Source of the DNA: an uncultured Synechococcus sp.
GTDB lineage: Bacteria; Cyanobacteriota; Cyanobacteriia; PCC-6307; Cyanobiaceae
DNA: 42,278 nucleotides
NCBI GenBank assembly: GCA_903855705.1
Contig: CAINZT010000072.1
Location: 1 to 42,278, forward strand
Direction of reading: 5' to 3'
The position numbers and the translations under genes are program-made. Shown one piece after another: positions 14,050 through 32,761 of this stretch; positions within the stretch are counted from its first letter, which is position 1; each line of letters opens with the position of its first letter. The notes under the pieces are model-generated. The model saw nothing but the letters and a program-made list of their open reading frames with translations, made no database searches and was not told where the DNA came from.

Positions 14050-14710
14050 GGACGACATTCGCTTGGCCGAACCGCTGAGTGAATTTCTGACTCGGGAACA
14101 CCACAGCGTCACCTGGTTGAGCGATGGCCAGCAAGCCCTCGATAGCCTGCTGGACGGCGGCTATCAACTGGCCCTACTCGACTGGATGCTGCCCAGCCGC
14201 GATGGCCTCTCGATCGTGCGTGAAATGCGTCGGCGCGGCGACACCACGTTGGTGTTGATGCTGACGGCCCGCGATGGCCTCAACGACATGGTGGAGGGTC
14301 TCCAGGCTGGGGCCGATGACTATCTGGTCAAACCCTTTCGCATGGGGGAACTGGCCGCCCGGATCCGTTCCCTAGAGCGCCGCAGCGACCGCCCCTACCA
14401 ACCGAGTCAACTGGTCTGGAACGACCTGGAACTGGACAGCCAGGCGGGCCAGCTCTGGTGCCAGGGCAAGGCCATCCCCCTGACCAGCAAGGAACTGCAA
14501 CTGCTGGAGTGGTTTCTGCGCCATCCCGGCCAGCTGTTCAGCCGTAGCCAGCTGCTGGATCGGTTGTGGACTTTGGATGCTTCCGCTGGCGAGGACACGG
14601 TCAAAACCCACCTCAATAACTTGCGGCGCAAATTGCGAAGCAGCAGCGGCGTCGACCCGATCGAAACGGTGCACGGCCTCGGCTATCGGCTGCGGAGCTC
14701 CCAAGCATGA
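14030..14710 (+). CDS. OmpR/PhoB-family response regulator
   Basis: DNA-binding response regulator of 226 residues. Receiver domain: acidic pocket E7, D8, D9; phosphoacceptor D51 in LLDWMLP; T79; and K101 in DDYLVKPF. C-terminal winged-helix domain, about residues 125-225: LTSKELQLLEWFLRHPGQLFSRSQLLDRLW, ending VKTHLNNLRRKLRSS and ETVHGLGYRL. The ATG at 14030 is chosen over the GTG three bases upstream because it gives the usual MRILLAEDD start. It overlaps the pgaD-like gene by 20 bases and the kinase gene by 4 (ATGA), so all three are probably made from one message. The LLDWMLP pocket and the partner kinase recall the cyanobacterial ManR/NrsR/RppA group, but I cannot name the stimulus. Confidence 0.93.
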   Translation: MRILLAEDDIRLAEPLSEFLTREHHSVTWLSDGQQALDSLLDGGYQLALLDWMLPSRDGLSIVREMRRRGDTTLVLMLTARDGLNDMVEGLQAGADDYLVKPFRMGELAARIRSLERRSDRPYQPSQLVWNDLELDSQAGQLWCQGKAIPLTSKELQLLEWFLRHPGQLFSRSQLLDRLWTLDASAGEDTVKTHLNNLRRKLRSSSGVDPIETVHGLGYRLRSSQA

Positions 14711-31519: not shown

Positions 31520-32164
31520 ATGCTTCTTCCCCTTAAAGACGGCGAACTTTCGCGGTTGATCCCGGCAATTGCCACTGGACCCCAGTTCAACGCCAGCAGT
31601 GGCACCCCCCAACAGGTGCTTCAGCGGGTGCTGATCGCGGTGATTGGCGGGGTGCTAGCGCTGCTGATCAGCCAAAGCCAGTTCTCCACCCAATGGGGTG
31701 GGGTGTTCATGGTGGTGGGATTCGTCTTTTTCTTCTACCTGCTCTGGGGACCAATCCTGGCGGCGGGGCAGCGCAACAGCGCCCTGCGCCGCTATCCGGC
31801 GGCGGCGATCTTTGAGGGCCGCATCGCCGACCTGTTTACCCGCGAACGGCTGGAGGGGCGCCAGGAGCAGACCGATAAGAGTGGTCGCCTGGAGCTGGTG
31901 GAGAACCGCCGCACCTGGCTCTGCCTGGAACTGGAGGACGAGGACGGCTACCTGGGCCAAATCCGCTTCCCGTACGACAAGAAGCACAAGCCGATCCGGC
32001 CGGGCATGGTGATTCGCTGCCTGGTCTTGAGCGAGCGCAAGGACTTTTCCCGCATCAGCGCCCTCAGCGATGGCTGGATTCCCCAGCTGAAGCTCTGGGT
32101 GGGCGAGTACCCCTACCTGTTGCGTCCCGCCTTTGAGGAGCTCTGCCTCAGGCGCCTGCGCTGA
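31520..32164 (+). CDS. Conserved cyanobacterial membrane protein of unknown function
   Basis: A 214-residue protein with GAGGAG just before its ATG. Two closely spaced membrane helices (VLQRVLIAVIGGVLALLIS and GGVFMVVGFVFFFYLLWGPIL, about 33-80) are followed by a soluble domain with ALRRYPAAAIFEGRIADLFT, LCLELEDEDGYLGQIRFPYD and a C-terminal WIPQLKLWVGEYPYLLRP. I recall similar cyanobacterial proteins labelled, without basis I can see, as phosphate transporter permease; nothing here looks like a transporter permease. It lies 33 bases behind dapB, probably in the same transcript. Function unknown. Confidence 0.82.
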   Translation: MLLPLKDGELSRLIPAIATGPQFNASSGTPQQVLQRVLIAVIGGVLALLISQSQFSTQWGGVFMVVGFVFFFYLLWGPILAAGQRNSALRRYPAAAIFEGRIADLFTRERLEGRQEQTDKSGRLELVENRRTWLCLELEDEDGYLGQIRFPYDKKHKPIRPGMVIRCLVLSERKDFSRISALSDGWIPQLKLWVGEYPYLLRPAFEELCLRRLR

Positions 32165-32230: not shown

Positions 32231-32258
32231 GTTACATGGCGCAATATTGCGTTACAAT
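32231..32258 (+). promoter_or_regulatory. HLR1-like direct repeat (RpaB-type half-sites) and core promoter of the hli gene
   Basis: GTTACATG (32231-32238) and GTTACAAT (32251-32258) match the half-site consensus (G/T)TTACA(T/A)(T/A) at 7 and 8 of 8 bases. The known HLR1 element has two bases between half-sites; here there are 12, filled mostly by the perfect palindrome CGCAATATTGCG (32240-32251). TACAAT (32253-32258) can serve as the -10 box. It ends 25 bases before the hli ATG. Confidence 0.6.
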
Positions 32259-32283
32259 TCGTTCACACCACCCGAGGCACCCC

Positions 32284-32538
32284 ATGGCCCAAGCCACCGC
32301 CACCGCACCCGCCGTCATCCGCGGCGCCACCGTCACCACCGAAGACGGCGGTCGCCTCAACGCCTTCGCCACCGAGCCCCGCATGGAAGTGGTGAGCGTC
32401 GAGAGCAGCTGGGGCTTCCACAAGCGCGCCGAACTGCTGAACGGCCGCATGGCCATGCTCGGCTTCATCGCCCTGCTGGCCACCGAATTCGCCTTGGGCG
32501 GCGAATCTTTCACCCGCGGCCTGCTCGGCATCGGTTGA
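32284..32538 (+). CDS. High-light-inducible protein (HLIP/SCP), single-helix CAB-like
   Basis: An 84-residue thylakoid protein that binds chlorophyll and carotenoid and protects photosystem assembly under light stress. The CAB-type helix is visible near residues 45-70: WGFHKRAELLNGRMAMLGFI, with the chlorophyll ligands E and N-R of the ExxNGRxAMxGF motif, followed by ALLATEFALGG. The N-terminal 40 residues are Ala/Thr-rich and not conserved in my view. The ATG at 32284 is chosen; an upstream ATG at 32236 would run through the promoter. It is monocistronic, with its own promoter bearing RpaB-type half-sites and a strong terminator 100 bases downstream. Confidence 0.93.
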   Translation: MAQATATAPAVIRGATVTTEDGGRLNAFATEPRMEVVSVESSWGFHKRAELLNGRMAMLGFIALLATEFALGGESFTRGLLGIG

Positions 32539-32637: not shown

Positions 32638-32670
32638 AACCGCGGTACCGTCTGGGCCGCGGTTTTTTCT
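32638..32670 (+). terminator. Intrinsic terminator after the hli gene
   Basis: AACCGCGG (32638-32645) pairs perfectly with CCGCGGTT (32657-32664) around an 11-base loop, and the stem runs into a T-tract (32663-32668, then CTT). This is the clearest intrinsic terminator in the window. Confidence 0.88.
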
Positions 32671-32725
32671 TGTCCACCGGAGGGATCCCGCGAGTGCGCG
32701 GCAACCAAGCACAATCTTGAAATCA

Positions 32726-32761
32726 ACATTGATCTCGACATTGATCTCGACATTGGCCACG
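32726..32761 (+). repeat. 12-base tandem repeat, three units
   Basis: ACATTGATCTCG occurs twice in a row (32726-32737, 32738-32749), followed by a diverged third copy ACATTGGCCACG (32750-32761). It lies between the hli terminator and the UbiH-like gene, so it is probably in or near that gene's promoter or leader. Confidence 0.8.

Follow-up and report, generated by a model that had tools for sequence, protein, structure and literature searches.

A conserved HLR1-type element with three candidate half-sites in the core promoter of an HliA/B-type gene of an uncultured Synechococcus sp.

How is the promoter of the small hli gene organised in the DNA analysed here (the window, that is, the whole stretch of 42,278 nucleotides from an uncultured Synechococcus sp.), and does it carry a site through which the response regulator RpaB could control the gene? 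The RpaB site HLR1 is known as KTTACAWW-N2-KTTACAWW and represses when it is located between -38 and +23, and both hliA and hliC belong to the RpaB-repressed set (PMC13421787, PMC6331805); published HLR1 sites also include degenerate first halves (PMC6331805 Table 1). In the first-pass annotation of the window two RpaB-type half-sites had been proposed upstream of hli, one turn of the helix further apart than in HLR1 and arranged around a perfect palindrome. The two GTTACA units are real and their starts are exactly 20 bases apart, but the view that they are just two half-sites moved apart by one turn finds no support: at a 10-base period, the middle slot is taken up by a third unit, conserved though degenerate.

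Starting at 32231, the promoter reads GTTACATG GC GCAATATT GC GTTACAAT TC GTTCACAC, after which comes the hli ATG at 32284 (Table 1). The gap between the two GTTACA units is 12 bases long (GCGCAATATTGC, 32239-32250), as had been described, but the palindrome does not lie within this gap, because it overlaps the second unit by a G. Compared with HLR1, slot 3 matches at 8/8 positions, slot 2 at 5/8 with the canonical spacing and slot 1 at 7/8 with a spacing of 12 bases; slot 2 stands in the canonical HLR1 register, with a 10-base period and a 2-base gap before slot 3. Both strands of the window were scanned for pairs of half-sites matching at 7/8 or better: a single case exists at a spacing of 20, and none at a spacing of 10. 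A pattern search with the core returned exactly one match in the genome, and the Rfam scan gave no match at the gathering threshold.

Table 1. Features of the hli promoter and of its immediate surroundings (window coordinates)
Feature	Position	Strand	Description
Slot 1, GTTACATG	32231..32238	+	HLR1-type candidate half-site, extra, 20 bases upstream of slot 3
Slot 2, GCAATATT	32241..32248	+	Degenerate middle candidate half-site; consensus of the relatives GCAAYAWT
Slot 3, GTTACAAT	32251..32258	+	HLR1 candidate half-site containing the -10 box TACAAT (32253-32258)
Palindrome CGCAATATTGCG	32240..32251	.	12 bases, perfect; judged incidental
Probable transcription start, A	32265	+	Proposed from a conserved column; 7 bases past the end of the -10 box
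hli, HliA/B type	32284..32538	+	84 aa; PF00504; Psb34-like N-terminal arm and chlorophyll-binding helix
Intrinsic-terminator-like stem-loop with T run, after hli	32647..32671	+	From a consensus scan only, which gave 2 sites against 1.3 expected by chance

The protein encoded by the gene combines a Psb34-like N-terminus with an ExxNGRxAM chlorophyll-binding helix, as HliA/B proteins do. Pfam places PF00504 (chlorophyll a/b-binding helix) on residues 46-70, and the protein contains ELLNGRMAM; with the NCBIfam model NF033486 (Psb34) it scores 41.1 bits, below the cut-off of 45, and this match comes largely from residues 18-40 (34 bits). HliA/B and Psb34 have a common N-terminal arm and are thought to compete for a site on CP47 (PMC9458560), and because of this common arm we consider the gene an hli of the HliA/B type. 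A separate Psb34 gene of the genome (L002, G000:C23:3364-3543) reaches 57 bits with NF033486 (cut-off 45); its N-terminal arm, EDGGRLNAFAxEPRMEV, is nearly identical to that of the window Hli, and inspection by eye showed no HLR1-like pair upstream of this gene. The 214-aa gene directly upstream of hli (window 31520-32164) has no Pfam or NCBIfam match, and 2.5 copies of ACATTGATCTCG form a short tandem repeat between hli and the next gene (window 32726-32755).

We collected 80 loci with related hli genes; these are contig loci only, and the other loci are not all oriented. With the window counted in, 79 promoters were aligned by their core and then reduced to 57 at 75% identity, with weak anchors in about nine of the aligned rows. 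The same gene lies upstream of hli in 65/79 loci, which supports the orthology of the loci. It should be noted that the rows are kin, so that the counts given below are not counts of independent events, and that the core served as alignment anchor, so that the conservation of slots 2 and 3 is somewhat flattered, slot 1 being outside the anchor. An alignment of the regions upstream of orthologous hli genes had been named as a check on the proposed element, and in the 57 deduplicated relatives an HLR1-type element is indeed conserved. It consists of three blocks that coincide with the three slots: GTTACAWT, of weak to moderate conservation, then GCAAYAWT, whose columns reach up to 2.1 bits and rank with the best conserved of the promoter, and finally GTTACANT, in which TTAC and the last T are invariant (57/57). 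Downstream of these blocks one column stands alone as conserved (1.78 bits), the A at 32265, present in 54/57 relatives, which is probably the transcription start. With the start placed there on the basis of conservation, the array would extend from about -34 to -7, and for this reason it would fall within the zone in which RpaB represses.

The extent to which each block resembles a half-site can be followed through the mean number of HLR1 matches by start column, which is 7.39/8 at 32251, 5.33 at 32241 and 4.86 at 32231, against about 2.3 in the flank. Slot 2 has between 4 and 6 matches out of 8 in all 57 rows. In the case of slot 1, the comparison within the genus is informative: the upstream flank has diverged (12-17/31 bases the same), while slot 1 keeps 5-6/6 bases and the core 20/20, and the unit is retained in 4/4 genus members, in one of them as GTTACG. 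The spacing of 20 bases that had been pointed out for the window also recurs in the relatives, since KTTAC is found at exactly 20 bases upstream of slot 3 in 20/57 promoters, once at -30 and at no other offset, whereas in 2000 shuffles no offset ever collected more than 3. With the relaxed pattern KTYAC the counts are 24 at -20, 3 at -30 and 1 at -11. This register is not built into the alignment, because the anchor excluded slot 1. Slot 1 (scored as KTTAC) requires at least 7 changes when placed on the tree of the neighbouring gene, and it therefore appears to come and go. We also considered a compensation between slot 1 and base 32245; its Fisher p of 2e-4, obtained without the tree, was no longer significant after pairing on the tree, and the candidate was discarded.

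Judged by these sequence comparisons, the conserved element is real and appears to be a variant of the known HLR1 with three slots. The reading that we prefer, and that we hold to be fairly probable, is that the HliA/B-type gene has a core promoter with an extended HLR1 made up of three head-to-tail half-sites, a candidate RpaB array (GTTACATG-gc-GCAATATT-gc-GTTACAAT). What stands of the original proposal is the RpaB-type (HLR1) character of the element, to which both its conservation and the presence of an RpaB gene in the genome (L120; NF045944 392 bits, cut-off 330) point, while the simple model of two half-sites finds no support. RpaB protomers would occupy the slots in head-to-tail order, lined up along one face of the helix; in low light RpaB would cover the region from -35 to -10 and keep RNA polymerase off, and in high light its release would switch hli on. 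The pattern of conservation suggests that slots 2 and 3 form an ordinary HLR1 pair whose first half is weak, and that slot 1 is an extra unit, located at -35 and present in part of the lineage only. The weakest point of the three-slot reading is slot 2 as an RpaB half-site, since it is never KTTAC (0/57 relatives).

It is precisely at slot 2 that a different organisation could be proposed, a split HLR1 in which the contacts of RpaB are limited to the two GTTACA units at their 20-base spacing and another protein occupies the middle GCAAYAWT. The 20-base register gives the strongest repeat signal (the correlation of the slot 3 columns is 0.87 at 20 bases upstream, 0.48 at 10 bases upstream and at most 0.37 at other shifts), and slot 2, besides lacking KTTAC, shows a constant departure from HLR1 at its second and third positions, with GCA or GAA in place of KTT. 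At positions 4-8, however, slot 2 fits HLR1 and varies as HLR1 permits (A-Y-A-W-T). Moreover slot 1 is absent in about half of the relatives and slots 2 and 3 are kept there, therefore the only possible pair in these promoters is the canonical one, and a similar first half, TAAATATT, occurs at canonical spacing before another hli gene of the genome. We consider the split arrangement unlikely.

The other hli promoters of the family help to place the middle slot within the three-slot array. In the short hliC-type promoters (23 after deduplication), first halves of the kind TTCACAAT or TTTACAAC stand 10 bases upstream of slot 3; KTYAC occurs at this offset in 14/23 (table read by hand) and in few at -20. 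The genome of the window has TTTACAAC-CT-GTTACAAT at 39 bases before another hli start, and a further hli gene is preceded by TAAATATT-TC-CTTACAAT, in which the first half is degenerate. From these promoters it follows that the middle slot fits the weak first half of an ordinary HLR1, and that the unit at -20 is an addition. The two-unit HLR1 of hliC-type genes (e.g. TTTACAAC-CT-GTTACAAT, L138/L142) resembles the window promoter in having slot 3 on the -10 box, near the start codon, but it has a strong first half at offset -10 (of the TTCACAAT type) and little or nothing at -20, whereas in the window promoter the situation is reversed. A canonical HLR1 with one mismatch, TTTACATCACGTTACAAA, was also seen at L137 (G000:C155:7483-7500), with no identified gene directly downstream. 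A bolder version of the three-slot reading, possible but doubtful, is that the array is specific to this promoter, has been gained or lost several times at the exact 20-base register and tunes the light threshold of HliA/B apart from that of hliC, the middle slot either staying weak or serving a second factor as well.

The conserved blocks could also belong to an ordinary sigma-70 promoter, with unit 1 as -35, unit 2 as -10 and a coincidental likeness to HLR1. TACAAT is the only sigma-70-like -10 found between 31400 and 33200, so that the overlap of the second unit with the -10 box, already claimed in the first description, holds; the first unit is at the same time a -35-like hexamer, a point that was absent from it. 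The promoter scan reads GTTACA(32231-32236)-16-TACAAT as the one promoter of the region, with 9/12 matches, and the hexamer's T, A and final T, all invariant, suit a -10 box. Slot 3 doubles as the -10 box, and its conservation is thus partly due to RNA polymerase. Nevertheless TTAC is invariant in 57/57, which fixes a C as third base of the -10 hexamer where the T of TATAAT would be better, and this exceeds what a -10 box alone requires. The spacer 32240-32250 is strongly conserved, which is unusual for a plain promoter, and no conserved hexamer exists at the -35 position of the 23 deduplicated hliC promoters. A consensus -35 was considered as the cause of slot 1 conservation and rejected: G is found at position 3 of the -35 hexamer in 2/57 relatives, and TTGAC is absent at that register. 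We accept the -10 role of slot 3, and slot 1 may have a -35 role, which does not explain its conservation; a plain sigma-70 promoter with accidental HLR1 likeness is quite improbable.

The palindrome, which had been presented as part of the site, raises a further alternative, in which a different regulator, one that binds dyads, has its operator in the middle CGCAA-N2-TTGCG and HLR1 has no role there. In the window the 12-base palindrome is perfect, and its outer arms are largely conserved in the relatives. However, the window contains 13 such palindromes, and this one is perfect in only 11/57 relatives. It is broken on one side without compensation, by C at 32245 in 26 relatives, A at 32247 in 19, A at 32242 in 9 and T at 32250 in 15, and the information of its columns is asymmetric (r = -0.32). 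Given the conservation pattern across the 57 relatives we reject the palindrome as an operator, and we regard a dyad-binding regulator in the middle as very unlikely.

Least probable of all is that an RpaB paralog occupies the array, either by itself or jointly with RpaB: of the two further RpaB-like response regulators, L123 (G000:C86:7495-7728) passes the RpaB cut-off of 330 with 359 bits and L124 (G000:C139:1150-1383) falls just under it with 320 bits, but L120 is the best RpaB match and in model strains the protein bound to the HLR1 sites of hli genes is RpaB (PMC13421787, PMC6331805). The window also encodes a response regulator close to RppA (L125, window 14465-14692; 228 bits, cut-off 250), whose gene is immediately followed by one for a histidine kinase.

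Searches for HLR1 have used a strict motif of two units with a two-base gap, derived from Synechocystis (e.g. PMC11633204). A strict pattern of this kind would miss the HliA/B promoter of the Synechococcus/Cyanobium-type family or give it a low score. The three-slot version with a weak middle would offer a simple way to set different light thresholds for each hli gene. Earlier descriptions of a three-unit HLR1 may exist, as our coverage of the literature consists of open papers.

Among known systems, the closest is the RpaB-bound HLR1 of hli/scp promoters in Synechocystis 6803 and S. elongatus 7942, which shares with the window promoter the GTTACAWW-type direct repeats with a 10-base period and the location inside the hli core promoter, adjoining the start site (PMC6331805, PMC13421787). 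It has two slots, while the window has three, the middle one being the degenerate GCAATATT and the extra consensus unit lying one turn upstream. In the Synechocystis psaAB region, as cited in PMC6331805, three separate HLR1 motifs act on two promoters; going by this description, more than one HLR1 is found at one gene, as here, but as separate motifs and not as one array. The other comparison is with ArcA of E. coli, of the OmpR family, whose sites have from two to five repeats, mostly more than two, which become weaker as their number grows, and mostly overlap promoters (PMC3798270). The three-repeat sites of ArcA, like the window array, are head-to-tail and about one turn apart, add a third repeat to a core pair, overlap a sigma-70 promoter and have weaker repeats when these are more numerous. 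Their period is 11 bases against 10 in the window array, and both the sequence and the regulator are different; by analogy, ArcA may be taken as an OmpR-family precedent for three-repeat sites placed over a promoter.
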